Shown piece by piece: positions 51,546 to 61,582 of a stretch of DNA of 64,000 bases. Origin of the DNA: Mitsuokella multacida DSM 20544. Its GTDB lineage: Bacteria; Bacillota; Negativicutes; Selenomonadales; Selenomonadaceae. The notes under the pieces are model-generated. The model searched no databases. It was not told the origin of the DNA and saw only the letters and a program-made list of their open reading frames with translations. The position numbers and the translations under genes were made by a program. The stretch is from the NCBI RefSeq assembly GCF_000155955.1, contig NZ_GG697142.2:547325-611324 (forward strand), read 5' to 3'. The first letter of the stretch is position 1. Every line of letters begins with the position of its first letter.

Positions 51546-52643
51546 ATGTATGATTATCTGATCGTTGGCAGTGGTCTTTTTGGTGCGGTCTTTGCACATG
51601 AGGCGAAGCAGGCGGGCAAGTCGGTGTTGGTCCTGGAGCGTCGGGAGCATGTCGGCGGCAATGTCTATTGTGAGGAGAAGGATGGCATCAACATCCACAA
51701 GTATGGCGCGCACATCTTCCACACGAGCTATGAGGATGTCTGGGCGTATGTCAACCGATTTGTCAACTTCAACAACTTTATCAACTCGCCGGTGGCGAAC
51801 TATCAGGGCCATCTCTACAATCTGCCGTTCAATATGAACACGTTCCGCGAGCTCTGGGACATCGTGATGCCGGCACAGGCCAAGGCAATCATCGCGGAGC
51901 AGCGCAAGGCCATCAAGGGCGAGCCGCAGAACCTCGAGGAGCAGGCCATCTCGCTCGTCGGCACGGATATCTACACGAAGCTCATCAAGGGGTATACGGA
52001 GAAGCAGTGGGGCCGCAGCTGCACGGAGCTGCCGGCATTCATCATCAAGCGTCTGCCGGTCCGCTATACGTTTGACAACAACTATTTCAACGACCGTTAT
52101 CAGGGCATCCCGGTCGGCGGTTACAACAAGCTGATCGAAGCACTGCTCGACGGCATCGAGGTGCGCACGGGCGTGGATTATCTCAAGGAGCGCGCGGCGT
52201 ATCAGAATGTGGCCAAGAAGATCGTCTACACGGGCTCGATTGACGAGTACTTCGACTACAAGCTCGGCCAGCTCGAGTACCGTGGCCTTCACTTCGAGAC
52301 GGAGCGCCTTGAGGAGGAGAACCATCAGGGCGTCGCTGTCGTCAACTACACGGAGCGCGAGATCCCGTATACGCGCATCATCGAGCACAAGCACTTCGAG
52401 TTCGGTACGCAGCCCGTCACCTATATCACACGCGAGTACCCAGCCGACTGGCATCGCGGCGAGGAGGCGTATTACCCGGTCAACAACGAGCGCAACCAGA
52501 AGCTCTACCAGCAGTACGCAGCCCTGGCCGAGCAGGAAGAGAACACCATCTTCGGCGGCCGTTTGGCAGAGTATAAGTACTACGATATGGATGACGTCAT
52601 TAAGAGCGCGTTGGAGCGAGTGAAGATAGAGCTGGCGAAATAA
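51546..52643 (+). CDS. glf: UDP-galactopyranose mutase
   Basis: 365 residues; an FAD enzyme that turns UDP-Galp into UDP-Galf. FAD-binding YLIVGSGLFGAVFAHEAKQ at the start, ERREHVGGNVY, GAHIFHTS and the conserved YPVNNERNQKLYQQY near the end. A deleted relative of this gene lies at 61.3 kb. Confidence 0.95.
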   Translation: MYDYLIVGSGLFGAVFAHEAKQAGKSVLVLERREHVGGNVYCEEKDGINIHKYGAHIFHTSYEDVWAYVNRFVNFNNFINSPVANYQGHLYNLPFNMNTFRELWDIVMPAQAKAIIAEQRKAIKGEPQNLEEQAISLVGTDIYTKLIKGYTEKQWGRSCTELPAFIIKRLPVRYTFDNNYFNDRYQGIPVGGYNKLIEALLDGIEVRTGVDYLKERAAYQNVAKKIVYTGSIDEYFDYKLGQLEYRGLHFETERLEEENHQGVAVVNYTEREIPYTRIIEHKHFEFGTQPVTYITREYPADWHRGEEAYYPVNNERNQKLYQQYAALAEQEENTIFGGRLAEYKYYDMDDVIKSALERVKIELAK

Positions 52644-53745: not shown

Positions 53746-53765
53746 AGATTGGAATGGTGGGAACG

Positions 53766-55988
53766 ATGATGCAGCAGAAATATGTCTATCTCTTCGAATT
53801 GGATTCAGTACGCGATTCGGACGAAGAGATCATTGCTGGCCAGCATGCGATTTACGATGAGATTGTCCGCAAGGGCAATGTCGTGGTGCTCACCTATAAT
53901 CAGCTCGTGGATTCACGGGCGTTTTTCAGCTTGATGACGGATGAGGCGTATTATCGCAATATCCTGAAGCTGTTCGAGCAGGGCTGTATCTGCATCTCGC
54001 AGTTCGGCGATATCCGCACGGTGGCGCAGTATATCCTCAGTACGGTCGATGCGAATAAGAGATTCATCTATTCGGCACTGCCGCTCATGTTCACGCAGAA
54101 GCGGTTGATTGCACTGGTACAGCGCAGTCTCATGTACTCGGACTTGTCGGAGATCCTTGAGTATCTGGATGGTGGGCGCCGCTCGGATGCGGAAGTGGAG
54201 GATCTCTTCCTCGAGGTTGAGCAGGATGAGACGGGCCATGTGAAGCGGATCGTATCGGGAGGCTCAGGTGAGAATATCGCGGCACACCGCAAGATCTTGG
54301 AGAATCTCTACAGTTTCCTGTCCATTATCTTGCGCCTGAGCATGCTCCATCATGTCTACATCGCTCCGCGCAAGGCGAGTGAGCTCGCTCCGTTCCGTTT
54401 CCATCACCTCATGCAGTGCATCTTGCAGTTATCGCTGCCTATCCCGTATTGGGGAGAGGTGCGCTCTATCTTACAGGAGCTGCCTGCTTTTCAGACGGGG
54501 CAGAATGGCCGCTCGCGCTATTACCGTGATTTGTATCGGCAGTTTCATGCGGTGGCGGCGGATGATCTCACGGAGACGCTGCGTCAGGCGTATCCACTGG
54601 CAGAGGCAGTGGTCGACCTCTGTTACAATTACGTTTGCGAGATCAGCATCTGCAATACCTCGAAGCACTACAATGTCGAAGAGCTGCGTGCGCTGGATTC
54701 GCCCAAGCCGACTTTTGCCGCTGATTTCACGAGGCGCTTGCAGGACCTCTGGGCGGATGGGGACCAGGTTGAGAAGCGTTTCCTGCGCACGGAGACGAAC
54801 CGGTTCATCTCGTTTGACAAGAAAAAACAGCTTCCGGATTTCTCGGAAGCTGTTCGCGTGGCAGATTATACAAGCCGCCAGCCGCATGAGGAATCGGAGA
54901 CGGTGCCGCGCTATGAATATGCGGAGGCGGAGCAGCAGCGTGTGCACCGACAGGCCATCTTTTCCAGCATCGGGCAAAAGCTCTTATTCTCACTTATCTG
55001 CCTGCTGGTGGCTTGCGGTGTGAAGTTCGCCTTCCAGGACATGAAGCTGCTGCTGGATCACTTCATGAACGTGGGGGCGGCTGTCTTTTCTATTGTGGAG
55101 ACAATCTGTTTCCTGCTGTTTACGGAGTGGATTTCGCATGCCTTGTCGGCGCGTTGTTCGCTGTTTGTGCCATTATCCAAGGCGCTGGGCAGCATGTATA
55201 CGTTGCTGCGAGATGGCTGGCATGCACTTTGGATGCCGAGGGCTGTGTCTGTAGCAGCTCAAGAAACGGATGTTGTTGAGGCGCGCAGTCAGGGAGCGCC
55301 GATTGATTTTGTCAAGCCGAGGGAACTGCGCGATTATCAGGCGTATCGAAACAGACATGCAGATTTATTCGCTCCATCGGCTGAGGTCCCTGTAGCGGAT
55401 ACGGACGACAGGGTAGTCATGCGTGAGCTGGTTCGCTCGATGGAGATCTACCATCAAAAGTATGGTATGATTTATCAGAGCCGCTACAATACCTTCCTCG
55501 TCGATCCGATTGCCCGACCGGATGGCACGTATTACGCTTTTGAACGGGTCCTGCCGACGGCGGGGAATGGTGTCGTCATCGTCGCCTGGAAAGCGGGAAA
55601 GTTCATCCTGCTGAAACAGTACCGCCATGCATTGCGGGCTGAGCAGTACTGCTTCCCTAGGGGATATGCGGAGCCAGGCGCGACTCCAGTCGAGAATATC
55701 CGGCGAGAGCTGGCGGAGGAGCTACATGCGACCCTCGCGCAGAAAACGCAGTCCCTTGGCTTCCTGGAGCCGGATAGTGGACTGACTTCACGCCGGATTG
55801 AAGTCTTCCTCGCAGAGCTGGACGATTATCAAGCCAATATCGGCCATGAAGGCATATTGGAGGTCCGTGAGGTAAGTCCAGAGGAATTGGAAAGCATGAT
55901 TGAGGACGGCACAGTCTCCGACGGCTATACGATAGGGGCGCTGGAACTGTGGCGGCTCAAAACTACTGGTAATCTGGATGAAGTATAG
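53766..55988 (+). CDS. membrane-anchored Nudix fusion protein
   Basis: 740 residues; start chosen for the GGTGGGA site, with ATGs 12 bases upstream and 3 bases downstream also possible. About 400 N-terminal residues, mostly helical (YVYLFELDSVRDSDEEI), match no family I recognise. Two membrane helices follow at about 403-425 and 436-460. The C-terminal 150 residues are a Nudix fold: GVVIVAWKAGKFILLKQYRH, then the Nudix box at about 633. In the box the REL-AEE core is intact, but the first Glu is Ala and the late Gly is His. This places it near ADP-ribose or nucleotide-sugar hydrolases with an altered box. Same strand as the polysaccharide genes; ends in its own terminator. Confidence 0.7.
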   Translation: MMQQKYVYLFELDSVRDSDEEIIAGQHAIYDEIVRKGNVVVLTYNQLVDSRAFFSLMTDEAYYRNILKLFEQGCICISQFGDIRTVAQYILSTVDANKRFIYSALPLMFTQKRLIALVQRSLMYSDLSEILEYLDGGRRSDAEVEDLFLEVEQDETGHVKRIVSGGSGENIAAHRKILENLYSFLSIILRLSMLHHVYIAPRKASELAPFRFHHLMQCILQLSLPIPYWGEVRSILQELPAFQTGQNGRSRYYRDLYRQFHAVAADDLTETLRQAYPLAEAVVDLCYNYVCEISICNTSKHYNVEELRALDSPKPTFAADFTRRLQDLWADGDQVEKRFLRTETNRFISFDKKKQLPDFSEAVRVADYTSRQPHEESETVPRYEYAEAEQQRVHRQAIFSSIGQKLLFSLICLLVACGVKFAFQDMKLLLDHFMNVGAAVFSIVETICFLLFTEWISHALSARCSLFVPLSKALGSMYTLLRDGWHALWMPRAVSVAAQETDVVEARSQGAPIDFVKPRELRDYQAYRNRHADLFAPSAEVPVADTDDRVVMRELVRSMEIYHQKYGMIYQSRYNTFLVDPIARPDGTYYAFERVLPTAGNGVVIVAWKAGKFILLKQYRHALRAEQYCFPRGYAEPGATPVENIRRELAEELHATLAQKTQSLGFLEPDSGLTSRRIEVFLAELDDYQANIGHEGILEVREVSPEELESMIEDGTVSDGYTIGALELWRLKTTGNLDEV

Positions 55989-57862: not shown

Positions 57863-58021
57863 TTAGTGGACCATATGGCGCTGATGTTGGAGCTCTTTGA
57901 CGAGCTCGCTGAGCTGGTCGGTGAAGCGGTCCATGGACCTTTGGAAGCTGGTCAGCAGGTAGAGCGTCACGACGATGGGGAAGCCGACGCTGGAGATTGC
58001 GGTGAGGAGATTCTGTTCCAT
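57863..58021 (-). CDS. YvrJ family small membrane protein
   Basis: 52 residues, MEQNLLTAISSVGFPIVVTL onward, with one membrane helix (about residues 8-25) and an amphipathic tail. This is the YvrJ family form. AAGGTGAT lies before the ATG. It ends a minus-strand set with DUF2922 and DUF1659 genes, a common trio in Firmicutes whose role is unknown. Confidence 0.8.
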   Translation of the reverse strand: MEQNLLTAISSVGFPIVVTLYLLTSFQRSMDRFTDQLSELVKELQHQRHMVH

Positions 58022-58136
58022 GGGGATCACCTTGTCACTTTACTTGTTGGGGGGAGTGAAGGCGGAAGGGATGGCTGGTAAGAGGCAGCCGATGCGCGGA
58101 GGGATGACGCATCGGCCGACTGGGCTTAGTCCGGGC

Positions 58137-58349
58137 TTAGGCGAGTTCCTCGACTTCGACGGTGCGGACGTTCGCGCCCTTGTAGGCGACGGGGAAGGCG
58201 CCGCCTACGAGGAAAGCTTTCTTGGCGACGACGTTATCGGCCCAGGCCTTGACGGCGGCATCCGAGATGTCATCCTTCGGGTCGAGCAGGGAGATGGTCT
58301 TCGTCTTGGCGTTATCGAGCAGGAATTCGATTTCAAGCGTGCGTTTCAT
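58137..58349 (-). CDS. DUF2922 family protein
   Basis: 70 residues. MKRTLEIEFLLDNAKTKTIS, LLDPKDDISDAAVKAWAD and a C-terminal VRTVEVEEL match the DUF2922 family. Soluble, function unknown. GAAAGGAG precedes the ATG. The YvrJ gene lies 115 bases downstream and DUF1659 110 bases upstream. Confidence 0.82.
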   Translation of the reverse strand: MKRTLEIEFLLDNAKTKTISLLDPKDDISDAAVKAWADNVVAKKAFLVGGAFPVAYKGANVRTVEVEELA

Positions 58350-58459: not shown

Positions 58460-58684
58460 TTAGCCCGTGATCATCGTCGCGTTCTCAAGGCGCTGGATGT
58501 CGCCGACATCGTGCGACTGCAGGGCGCCGAGGCCCTGGCCGACGGCGAGCAGGTCCTCGTCGCTGATCTCCGGGTTGATGGAGCTGAACGTGCGCGTCGC
58601 GTACTTGACCGTACCCGTATTCGTCGTGCCGTTCTCCACCTTGATCTTGAGGGACGTTGTGATGTTCGTGCGCTGCGTAGCCAT
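58460..58684 (-). CDS. DUF1659 family protein
   Basis: 74 residues; TSLKIKVENG, VKYATRTFSSINPEISDEDLLAVGQGLGALQ (in pieces) are typical of DUF1659, which regularly precedes DUF2922 and YvrJ. Function unknown. AAAGGAG before the ATG; a promoter with a TTGACATGTCAA palindrome lies about 130 bases upstream. Confidence 0.82.
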   Translation of the reverse strand: MATQRTNITTSLKIKVENGTTNTGTVKYATRTFSSINPEISDEDLLAVGQGLGALQSHDVGDIQRLENATMITG

Positions 58685-58797
58685 GATGATTCTCCTTTCA
58701 ATGGCAGAAATGAGTGGGATAGAGGTGGCCTCAGAGACAGCCGCGAGGCCGGCGGGCTGTCTGTTGGCTTAGGTGTTATTCCCTTGCCTTGATTTTA

Positions 58798-58864
58798 TTG
58801 TACGGGATTGACATGTCAAAAGCAAGAGATTTTTTAGAGAAGATTTTGACACTTGAGTTGACAC
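58798..58864 (-). promoter_or_regulatory. promoter and TTGACA repeats before the DUF1659 trio
   Basis: On the minus strand a TTGACA inside the perfect palindrome TTGACATGTCAA (58808) is followed by TAAAAT at 16 bases. TTGACAC occurs twice on the plus strand 12 bases apart (58846, 58858). Similar TGTCAA repeats stand upstream of the Rep-like gene. Confidence 0.55.
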
Positions 58865-58885: not shown

Positions 58886-59524
58886 TTATATATGCGCCGG
58901 TACATATCGCCAGAGCATCGGAGCGGGCTCATCCTCTTCGTAGATCAGCTCCCCTTCGGGCGTGATATGTGCCCGGAGGAACTGGTCGACGCCACTCGCG
59001 ATGGCCTGGCCGAAGACGGCAGGATAGTCGAGCAGCAGCCGGATATCCTCATCGTTGTCGAGGAAGGCGGTCTCGACGAGGATGGCGGGCATGGCGGTGC
59101 GCCTCAGCACGGTGAAGTCGGGATTGACCTTGACGCCGCGGTCGGGGAAGCTCTTGTCGAGGCGGCTGACGGCCCGGTGCACCGACTTCTGCACGATGGT
59201 CGCGAGGCCATGGCCCCACGAGCACTCGCTGAACGCGTACGTCTCGCAGCCGCGGCCGCCGCCGGCATTGGCATGGATCGAGAGGAAGACATCGGCGGGC
59301 CAGTTGTTGGCGAGCGCCGTGACATTTGGGTAGGCGGGCGCCTCGCCGCGCAGGTTGTGGCTCTGCACCGTCTTCGTCGAGTGGCCGTAGCGCTCGAGCG
59401 CGATGCAGCAGTTCCGCGCGATGCGCGCATTGACCTCGGCTTCCGTGATATCGTGTTCGAGATTGACCGCACCGGGATCCGGCCGGCTACCGAGCGCATG
59501 GCCCGGATTGATAAAGATTCGCAT
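58886..59524 (-). CDS. N-acetylmuramoyl-L-alanine amidase (Amidase_3)
   Basis: 212 residues from ATG giving MRIFINPGHALGSRPDPGAV, chosen for the AAAGGAGCATCCC site. The zinc ligands of Amidase_3 are in place: His in NPGH, Glu in ITEAEVN and His in SIHANA; the catalytic Glu is in LVETAFLDN. No signal peptide or cell-wall binding domain, so it may leave the cell through a holin-like route or act from within, as phage endolysins do. About 85 bases after the winged-helix gene. Confidence 0.87.
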   Translation of the reverse strand: MRIFINPGHALGSRPDPGAVNLEHDITEAEVNARIARNCCIALERYGHSTKTVQSHNLRGEAPAYPNVTALANNWPADVFLSIHANAGGGRGCETYAFSECSWGHGLATIVQKSVHRAVSRLDKSFPDRGVKVNPDFTVLRRTAMPAILVETAFLDNDEDIRLLLDYPAVFGQAIASGVDQFLRAHITPEGELIYEEDEPAPMLWRYVPAHI

Positions 59525-59610
59525 GGGATGCTCCTTTCGTATAGAGGTGGTTTGAGGAATGAGGATGGACTTGCTCATTCCATCCACTTTCCTTCCTATT
59601 ATAATAGAAG

Positions 59611-59982
59611 CTATGAGGCAGATTCAGACGGATTGCCAGATTTGTCCGTGCTATTATCTGATTTTGCAGATTCCCTCGCCAGCCTTGACTTCTTCGCCGC
59701 CTGCTTGGCGCTCCAGACGGCTTCTGGCCCGGCCTCGTAGATGGCCTTCGACCTGGCGAGGATGACCTCGGCCAGTACCGGATTGATGAGCTCGTAATGC
59801 GGCTTGCGCGCGATGCGCTCGATGGCGATGAGCCCGAGTTCGCAGAGCTCCTGGCGCGCCGCGACGAACGTCCCGTGCGAGATCCCGCCGGCCTCGCGGC
59901 GCAGCGTCAGCTCGCGGATCGACCCGCCGCCGTACTTCTCAATTCCCCGATACAGCCCTTGTGCATGATTCGTTGCAAACAT
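59611..59982 (-). CDS. winged-helix-like protein of unknown function
   Basis: 123 residues with a strong GAGAGGAGG site. GGGSIRELTLRREAGGISHG and the ELGLIAIERIARKPHYELI segment resemble a winged helix; the tail from about residue 90 is Lys/Ser/Ala rich and looks disordered. It overlaps the Rep-like gene by 44 bases, so the two are coupled. Probably a DNA-binding partner. Confidence 0.6.
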   Translation of the reverse strand: MFATNHAQGLYRGIEKYGGGSIRELTLRREAGGISHGTFVAARQELCELGLIAIERIARKPHYELINPVLAEVILARSKAIYEAGPEAVWSAKQAAKKSRLARESAKSDNSTDKSGNPSESAS

Positions 59983-60379
59983 GAGTATCCTCCTCTCGGA
60001 CCTGCGTCTCTGCTACATTGAAAGCCTGATACGATTTCGAGCCAGCGAGCATTTCCTCTGGCGTCATGAGCATGTGCGGGCGCACATTGCTGATGAGATA
60101 GTACTTGACCGAGCGGCTGCCCGGCTCCTGCTCGTAGAGCAGATACCCCTGCTCTGCGAGCTCCGCGCGGGCGCGCTGCACCGACGAGCGCGAGAGCCGC
60201 AGGGCCCCGGCCAGCTCGTTGAGCTGCAAATGCAAGGGAAATTGCCAGTACGCTGCGTTCGCGCGGTAGAAGAGATACTGCCAGAGTGCCTGTGCGCTCG
60301 CCGACAGCGGCCGGACCGGCATCATCTGGTGGAAGTAGCGGAACTCCGTGATGAAGCCCGTCATCGCTTCCTTGGCCAT
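59939..60379 (-). CDS. Rep/DnaD-like winged-helix protein
   Basis: 146 residues from ATG after AAAGGGGTG. The N-terminal half (FITEFRYFHQMMPVRPLSASAQALWQYLFYRAN; LQLNELAGALRLSRSSVQRARAELAEQGYL, in pieces) is a winged helix like those at the start of DnaD-type and plasmid replication proteins. No primase or initiator catalytic motif. Promoter TTGACA/TATACT upstream and a DnaA-box cluster 540-670 bases upstream suggest a link to replication. Confidence 0.6.
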   Translation of the reverse strand: MAKEAMTGFITEFRYFHQMMPVRPLSASAQALWQYLFYRANAAYWQFPLHLQLNELAGALRLSRSSVQRARAELAEQGYLLYEQEPGSRSVKYYLISNVRPHMLMTPEEMLAGSKSYQAFNVAETQVREEDTHVCNESCTRAVSGN

Positions 60380-60575
60380 AGAAAACACCCCTTTCATCAA
60401 AACATCTTGCATAATACGGCCGTCAACAGCAAAACGGGCCTGCTCATCTCCAAGGCATCACAGACCGAGAGGATCGTCGGACTGCTGATCTGCCGTGCGA
60501 GACAAGCAAGCCCGAATTCCGTCTTGTTTGTTGGTCGTGCAAAAGAGTGTGCGTCGCATCGCTGCTGACAAGCTT

Positions 60576-60655
60576 AGTATACGGTACCGGGCTGCTCCGT
60601 GTCAAGCGTAAAAATGCCTGCGAACCGAGGACACGACGTGTCAAATGAGTGTCAA
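60576..60655 (-). promoter_or_regulatory. promoter and GTGTCAA repeats before the Rep-like gene
   Basis: On the minus strand TTGACA and TATACT with an 18-base spacer. GTGTCAA occurs three times on the plus strand (60599, 60638, 60649), the first over the -35 and the last two 11 bases apart. They could be operator sites or short iterons. Confidence 0.6.
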
Positions 60656-60919
60656 CCCTTGAAAGTACTAGCTTTTTGCGCTCAAAAGAAAATTTTTTGA
60701 TACTTCGAAAAAGTAGATGAAAACGAGTGTAAAATGAGTCTAAATGAGAATAAGTTCCAACAACAAGCCAGAATCTGCAACCTAGATGCACCGCCTCGTC
60801 AGACCTCAGACGCACAGCCGACACAGAGAAGGGGGCGCCTCTACGTTAATTTTTTCTTTCGCTTCGCTAGAGCTACGTCTTAGAGAGCCCGCGAAGCCAG
60901 CAGCGCCAACGGAAAGCGG

Positions 60920-61053
60920 CTATCCACAAGGTCACAGAACACACAAAACTGAGTACAGTGCGGGCGCAGACTGACACATAGAGCGGGGCAGTGATTAATT
61001 TTATCCACAAGTATTCCGAAGTTATACACATGTTATCAACAGAGTTATGCACA
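60920..61053 (+). other. cluster of DnaA boxes, possible replication origin
   Basis: Four boxes in one orientation within 53 bases: TTATCCACA (61001, perfect), TTATACACA (61022), TTATCAACA (61033) and TTATGCACA (61045), plus CTATCCACA at 60920. The gap from 60,380 to 61,280 holds no convincing gene; besides this cluster it has the promoter repeats and a downstream promoter. No dnaA gene is in the window. Confidence 0.65.
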
Positions 61054-61280: not shown

Positions 61281-61582
61281 ATGTATAAGTATCTGATTGT
61301 CGATAGCGTCTGGTTTGATGCTGTCTTTGCTCATGAGGCGAAGCGATTGAGAAAGTCGGTTTTTGTGATGGAGCGCCGCGAGCATGTGAGCGGCAATGTC
61401 TATCGGCGAAGAAGCTTATTACCACGTCAACAACGAGCGCAACTAGAGCCGCTCAAGCAGTGCGCAGCCTTGGTCAAGCAAGAGCACATATCATCTTCGA
61501 TGGCCGGCTTGCAGAGTATAAGTATTACGATATAGATGATGTGGTCAAGAATGCACTGGGCTGTGTGGAAGAAATTAATTAA
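61281..61582 (+). pseudogene. glf: deleted UDP-galactopyranose mutase gene
   Basis: The first 41 codons (MYKYLIVDSVWFDAVFAHEA...) match the N-terminus of the intact Glf at 51.5 kb. The sequence then jumps to the region matching EEAYYPVNNERN, and out of frame to the last 20 residues (LAEYKYYDMDD-like). About 250 internal codons are lost. The FAD loop is also damaged (VDSVWF for VGSGLF). It directly precedes the GT2 gene. Confidence 0.9.

Follow-up and report, generated by a model that had tools for sequence, protein, structure and literature searches.

A DnaA-box cluster beside a winged-helix gene in Mitsuokella, a probable remnant of a class-wide family of integrative elements

The phage-inducible chromosomal islands (PICIs) of Gram-positive bacteria carry pri and rep, with two sets of iterons flanking an AT-rich region, as described in part of a published account (PMC6092414). 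A second described system, the box-spacer-trio module with which DnaA unwinds DNA, has a spacer length that peaks at 10–13 bp in the portion of PMC8287927 that treats it. Here we compare with such systems a block of DnaA boxes and a gene for a small winged-helix protein (wHTH1) in Mitsuokella. The window, by which we mean the whole analysed stretch of 64,000 nucleotides (contig C5, 547325–611324), belongs to a genome of 2.58 Mb (G000). From sequence comparison we consider it likely that the block represents the replication and regulation end of a class-wide family of integrative mobile elements, of which the window holds a decayed or domesticated copy. Named hosts of this family are Selenomonas, Anaerovibrio and Mitsuokella, together with members of other families of the class.

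The wHTH1 protein matched the Pfam family HTH_36 (E 1.3e-5; 25.3 bits, just above the cut-off of 25) as well as profiles of phage replication initiation and DnaD-like proteins (PHROG 270 and 186), in agreement with the Rep/DnaD-type winged-helix gene proposed in an earlier, sequence-only reading of this DNA. Structure prediction likewise gave a winged helix, with a mean pLDDT of 79 that rises to about 90 or more across residues 11–100. A structure search with this prediction returned generic winged-helix regulators only, none at E 0.001 or better, and the Pfam search gave no Rep_3 match. A start inside the reading frame, at about 60379 (MAKEAM), agrees with the relatives. The second ORF, wHTH2, had no match in the Pfam search. 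No match to an integrase, repressor or excisionase was obtained anywhere in the window, and an RNA family search gave one sub-threshold match only. The features of the block are listed in Table 1. Elsewhere in the window, a UDP-galactopyranose mutase gene is represented next to the boxes (61281–61550) by a broken, internally deleted fragment, about 78% identical to an intact copy 9 kb away (51546–52643), and a 744-aa protein encoded at 53754–55988 carries a NUDIX domain at its C-terminus, its long N-terminal part being without assignment.

Table 1. Positions, in window coordinates, of the features of the block
Feature	Position	Strand	Remarks
YvrJ-like small protein	57863..58030	-	
DUF2922 protein	58137..58349	-	Pfam
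DUF1659 protein	58460..58684	-	Pfam
N-acetylmuramoyl-L-alanine amidase	58886..59587	-	Amidase_3, endolysin-like
wHTH2, second ORF	59611..59982	-	matches element wHTH2 proteins; 123 aa vs 211 aa in M. jalaludinii (G001)
wHTH1, small winged-helix protein	59939..60412	-	resembles N-terminal domain of phage replication initiators / DnaD-like helicase loaders
wHTH1 promoter TTGACA-18-TATACT	60576..60605	-	11/12 consensus matches; similar promoter in G001
TTGACAC-N4-TTGACAC direct repeat, putative operator	60638..60655	-	conserved in M. jalaludinii
Conserved block with CTAAGACGTA (minus strand)	60842..60912	.	aligns with G001; by eye, similar block after boxes in relatives
Distal DnaA box CTATCCACA	60920..60928	+	one mismatch
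Stretch where relatives carry 12-bp iterons	60929..61000	.	no significant period in window, p 0.69
Main DnaA-box cluster	61001..61053	+	TTATCCACA, TTATACACA, TTATCAACA, TTATGCACA; four boxes in 53 bp
DnaA box TTATCCACA	61001	+	perfect
DnaA box TTATACACA	61022	+	
DnaA box TTATCAACA	61033	+	one mismatch to TTWTNCACA
DnaA box TTATGCACA	61045	+	

The five boxes that had been described from the sequence, four of them within 53 bp and one perfect, are present as described. Boxes with at most one mismatch are not commoner in the window than by chance (62 observed against 60 expected), and the standout feature of the boxes here is their tight packing, not their number. The 796,533-bp contig contains 16 TTATNCACA/TTATCAACA boxes, the four of the window cluster counted in, and at this density a Poisson estimate gives about 3e-9 expected runs of four boxes in 53 bp. 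The distal box CTATCCACA has an equivalent place in M. jalaludinii (offset −510 versus −516), and CTATCCACA is found near the box cluster of several other elements as well.

Three GTGTCAA repeats had also been noted over the wHTH1 promoter, and they are there (60599, 60638 and 60649), among seven in the window against 5.6 expected. The copy at 60599 forms the −35 element of the promoter, and the other two form the TTGACAC-N4-TTGACAC direct repeat just upstream of it, a pattern that was picked post hoc and for which 0.01 matches at up to one mismatch are expected. The suggestion that these repeats act as iterons of an origin is ruled out by their location: they are promoter or operator features, whereas the iterons of the relatives are 12-bp repeats beside the boxes, with a period that is absent in the window. 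A second GTGTCAA pair (58846 and 58858) lies with a TTGACATGTCAA palindrome and a predicted promoter upstream of the DUF1659 gene (58792–58864), where the same regulator as at the wHTH1 promoter may act.

The closest named genome with the block is that of Mitsuokella jalaludinii (G001), from the same genus as the window. Like the window copy, it has kept the boxes and genes and lacks an integrase, a repressor and an excisionase as well as a trio and recognisable iterons. A third genome of the genus (G002) lacks wHTH1. The boxes and the TTGACAC pair align between the two copies, and conservation of the boxes in a related species, on which the sequence-only reading had made its proposal depend, is thereby observed; the copies also have some flanking sequence in common, in a rearranged order. 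The dN/dS values between the two genomes were 0.28 for wHTH1, 0.26 for the amidase, 0.34 for DUF1659 and 0.33 for DUF2922, which together with the aligned boxes and TTGACAC pair indicates that these genes are under constraint. The wHTH2 gene, shorter in the window, is less constrained (0.61). A further reduced copy, in another genus (G180), has boxes and gave no integrase, repressor or excisionase match.

A search for wHTH1 in 189 genomes of the same family gave matches in 31, at 35 places. After fetching, G087, G125b, G135 and G055 were excluded as distant or phage-type and without box cluster and gene order; G113, G084 and G110, with no box near the match, and G072, with no locus, were also left out of the count. 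This left 27 loci, the window among them, several truncated by contig ends. The box TTATNCACA occurs at −1300 to −400 of wHTH1 in 26 of the 27 (50 boxes, where the remaining sequence of these loci leads one to expect 0.68), a count that describes conservation and is no independent test, because the range was chosen after the boxes had been seen and the loci are related, several being near-identical, so that counts are not independent. All 50 of these upstream boxes are on the strand opposite the wHTH1 gene.

The order of genes in these elements is integrase, boxes, 12-bp iterons, repressor facing excisionase, wHTH1 and amidase, often with DUF1659, DUF2922 and YvrJ. Wherever integrase and repressor both occur, the boxes sit between them. 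The integrase-bearing elements have the integrase and a Cro/CI-type repressor on one strand, and the excisionase, wHTH1 and later genes on the other. Across the 27 loci, matches were obtained for integrase (22), repressor (22), excisionase (21), wHTH2 (22) and amidase (25), and for DUF1659 (15), DUF2922 (15) and YvrJ (16), the last three varying in place and strand. Several genomes contain two or three copies.

The iteron period was tested against mononucleotide shuffles in 19 of the 27 loci, namely 16 integrase-bearing ones, the window, M. jalaludinii and G180. It was significant (p<0.05) in all 16 integrase-bearing loci, with a best period of 12 in 14, of 11 in one and of 24 in one (12 being second). 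No significant period was detected in the window, which has no recognisable iterons (p 0.69), in M. jalaludinii (p 0.82) or in G180 (p 0.23). Inspection by eye of the sequence after the iterons showed a palindrome, a block of CTAAGA type and an AT-rich tract in many elements. Runs of at least three TA[AG] are found nearby in 14 of the 27 loci, none with an adjoining box; M. jalaludinii has no trio, and the window has no run of three TAR trios in the one orientation scanned.

Candidate end repeats were found in 7 of the 18 same-family loci searched, and the implied element size is about 12.5–17.4 kb. Five of the seven lie in tRNA-Ser(CGA) or tRNA-Leu(CAA): a 63-bp repeat in tRNA-Ser(CGA) (G149, G150 and G142b), a 75-bp repeat in tRNA-Leu(CAA) (G160), and repeats of 17 and 22 bp in tRNA-Leu (G152). 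The others are a long repeat (G164) and an unsure one of 27 bp (G162). No convincing end repeat was seen in the remaining 11 loci, where there was nothing, or short matches of 14–22 bp, or the case of G007. On this 18.8-kb contig (G007:C17, L065), imperfect repeats of up to 112 bp lie near both ends, and these resemble copies of a small gene more than they do element ends. The cargo of the G152 element includes a C5 methylase together with endonucleases of the HNH and Vsr types. In the G160 element (L051), two methylases, one of them a D12 adenine methylase, accompany a DpnI-type methyl-directed enzyme; as enzymes of this type cut at methylated sites, the combination is odd.

A profile search extended to 380 genomes of the class, those of the same family among them, gave matches in 57. 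Outside the family, 18 places were fetched (the 20 best-scoring minus two of G375) and 16 of them were taken as elements; G190 and G192 are other proteins and were not counted. A repressor and a box cluster are present in all 16, and integrase and excisionase in 15. Here the boxes lie mostly at about +287 to +314, at the 3′ end of wHTH1, and then again further on. In 15 of the 16, a trio run such as TAATAGTAGTAG is followed after 12–13 bp by a box with 0–2 mismatches, accompanied by an AT-rich tract; same-family sequence, on which the background was measured, contains 0.028 trio runs per kb. An SSB gene match lies at +502 to +525 in 15 of the 16 (Pfam SSB, E 5.6e-33 for one). End repeats were searched for in these elements and none were found. 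As judged from sequence, this arrangement is the one published for unwinding by DnaA. The boxes shift in position between families but their link to wHTH1 stays, which argues for a joint function. In most of the loci L121–L137 the boxes are inside the wHTH1 frame, and the protein thus ends in box-encoded VDK/VDN repeats.

From the gene order, the end repeats of some loci, the boxes, iterons and trio and their spacing, we infer that these elements replicate. Relief of the repressor would allow excisionase and integrase to release the element as a circle, and host DnaA would bind the ordered boxes. In the window's family, DnaA and an element DNA-binding protein on the iterons would open the AT-rich tract, and we would guess that wHTH1 is this iteron-binding protein; in the other families the tract would be opened by the box-spacer-trio module. 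wHTH1 would then recruit the helicase, and SSB, where encoded, would coat the strands. This suggests that the element may borrow DnaA, the replication starter of its host. The window copy has no integrase, repressor or excisionase and no recognisable iterons or trio, most likely through loss. What is left (boxes, wHTH1 with its own promoter, amidase, DUF1659, DUF2922 and YvrJ) is fixed in the chromosome and probably no longer an independent origin; it would be at most a DnaA-binding site beside retained genes, and the surviving boxes possibly titrate DnaA. A more detailed account, which we put forward tentatively and hold to be somewhat short of probable, is that a widespread family of integrative elements of the class replicates after excision from a chromosome-like box-spacer-trio origin opened by host DnaA, helped by a stripped-down winged-helix initiator and the elements' own SSB, that the lysis-type amidase with DUF1659, DUF2922 and YvrJ forms a conserved dispersal module, and that Mitsuokella domesticated one copy and kept its DnaA-binding cluster on the chromosome.

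Other clusters of two to five TTATNCACA boxes occur in the same genome (L044–L049) beside ordinary genes and without a Rep gene, one of them adjoining what by eye appears to be an anaerobic ribonucleotide reductase activase, and boxes alone therefore prove little. The boxes of the block and its relatives could instead form a regulatory or titration site controlled by DnaA and no origin, with DnaA timing the expression of integrase or repressor in the integrase-bearing elements and, in the window, being titrated or regulating wHTH1. Such a role would agree with a window copy that retains boxes and neither iterons nor trio. We nevertheless regard it as unlikely, because the other families have their boxes within wHTH1 or behind it, at a distance from integrase and repressor, and because regulation alone leaves unexplained the AT-rich tract, the trio with a box at 12–13 bp and the SSB gene.

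The integrase of the elements has an arm-DNA-binding domain, and in the same family the repeats adjoin its gene in direct orientation, often in steps of about 11, 12 or 21–22 bp. They might thus be arm-type sites of this tyrosine integrase that resemble DnaA boxes by chance. This is improbable to a much greater degree than a regulatory role: the repeats fit the DnaA consensus, boxes of which flank the host dnaA gene on both sides, the repeats of the other families are more than 1 kb from the integrase, and the window copy keeps its repeats without one.

That the dense boxes beside a replication-type gene mark a second active chromosomal origin is hardly credible, since GC skew keeps a positive sign to either side of the site and along most of contig C5, with no reversal at the site (the largest exception, a negative stretch at 560–590 kb, is 18–48 kb away), the genome's only match to the dnaA C-terminal domain lies on contig C4 with boxes of its own, and iterons and trio are not recognisable. 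The site is thus probably not the chromosome origin; the remark of the sequence-only reading that no dnaA lies nearby holds, and the effect on GC skew that it had envisaged does not appear.

That reading had also proposed an iteron-type plasmid origin that entered the chromosome. An origin of element type is consistent with our results, but the relatives are integrative elements, with an integrase in 22 of 27 loci and some located at tRNA genes. A tblastn search of 72,556 plasmid records gave no match, either to the window protein at E 1e-5 or to a Selenomonas homologue at E 0.01; a plasmid relative was thus not found among these records, and the proposed plasmid source is not supported. The integrase of one element matched entries in 300 plasmid records without ever reaching 60% identity (27–29% among the 8 matches listed), and we take these to be tyrosine integrases of a generic kind. 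A search of 50,697 phage records left the window protein unmatched and gave two weak partial matches to the Selenomonas homologue; among viral contigs there were 13 pattern matches, none confirmed. The genome contains a second origin-like locus (contig C6, about 1135538–1138627; L002) with a Rep_3 initiator gene (Rep3_N, E 1.7e-16), a match that is absent in wHTH1. This locus has seven 20-bp repeats (AAAGGTGTC..GTTYGGTTG) and DnaA boxes spaced like those of the window, and by eye an MFS-transporter-like gene lies alongside.

A description of the element family was not found among the open-access literature matches listed; papers naming only YvrJ or the DUFs might escape such a search, and the result is to be read as 'not found', not as 'never described'. 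If our interpretation as an integrative element family is correct, a mobile element with DnaA boxes and DnaA-trio would offer a small natural test bed for the opening of DNA by DnaA outside an essential origin, the replication of the element would be tied to the DnaA supply of its host, and the little-known DUF1659, DUF2922 and YvrJ genes would gain a setting in which to be studied. The window alone is of lesser value and would show such an origin after domestication.

Compared with PICIs, as far as the consulted part of PMC6092414 describes them, most of the relatives, though not the window copy, likewise have the integrase on the repressor strand and the excisionase and replication genes opposite. 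Further similarities with that description are specific attachment sites, with candidate end repeats in 7 of the 18 same-family loci searched, accessory genes, and an origin close to the replication gene. The relatives differ from it in having one repeat array and in that their DnaA boxes are accompanied by 12-bp iterons or by a DnaA-trio. They also carry a mini winged-helix protein, SSB (in the other families), amidase, DUF1659, DUF2922 and YvrJ, which sets them apart from PICIs. Inspection by eye of the ORFs of seven elements, the long ones in part, revealed neither a primase-rep gene nor relaxase or conjugation genes. With iteron plasmid origins such as RK2 oriV, in the excerpt of PMC4980987, the elements share DnaA boxes of fixed orientation that lie, along with iterons and an AT-rich region, close to the gene for a winged-helix protein. 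Unlike the plasmids of that excerpt, they are integrated, most with integrase and excisionase, and wHTH1 is a single short winged helix in place of the WH1-WH2 of Rep_3; the window copy further departs from such origins in having no recognisable iterons, which all 16 integrase-bearing same-family loci tested possess.

The other-family elements resemble the basal unwinding system of chromosome origins, as outlined in part of PMC8287927, in their box, 12–13 bp spacer, TAATAGTAGTAG-type trio and AT-rich tract. A DnaA box with at least three trios at a spacer of at most 16 bp, which we took to define this system, was found in 15 of the 16 other-family elements and not in the window. In contrast to the system outlined there, the arrangement belongs to a small mobile element, where it adjoins the wHTH1 and SSB genes, and it is absent in the window and incomplete in the same family. 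The winged helix of wHTH1 matches phage replication initiators and DnaD-like helicase loaders near their N-terminal part, and wHTH1 lacks their larger C-terminal part (the PHROG 270 and 186 profiles have 383 and 308 positions, respectively). While differing in its origin and in the absence of a recognised primase, the layout of the elements is closest to that of phage-inducible islands and iteron plasmids.
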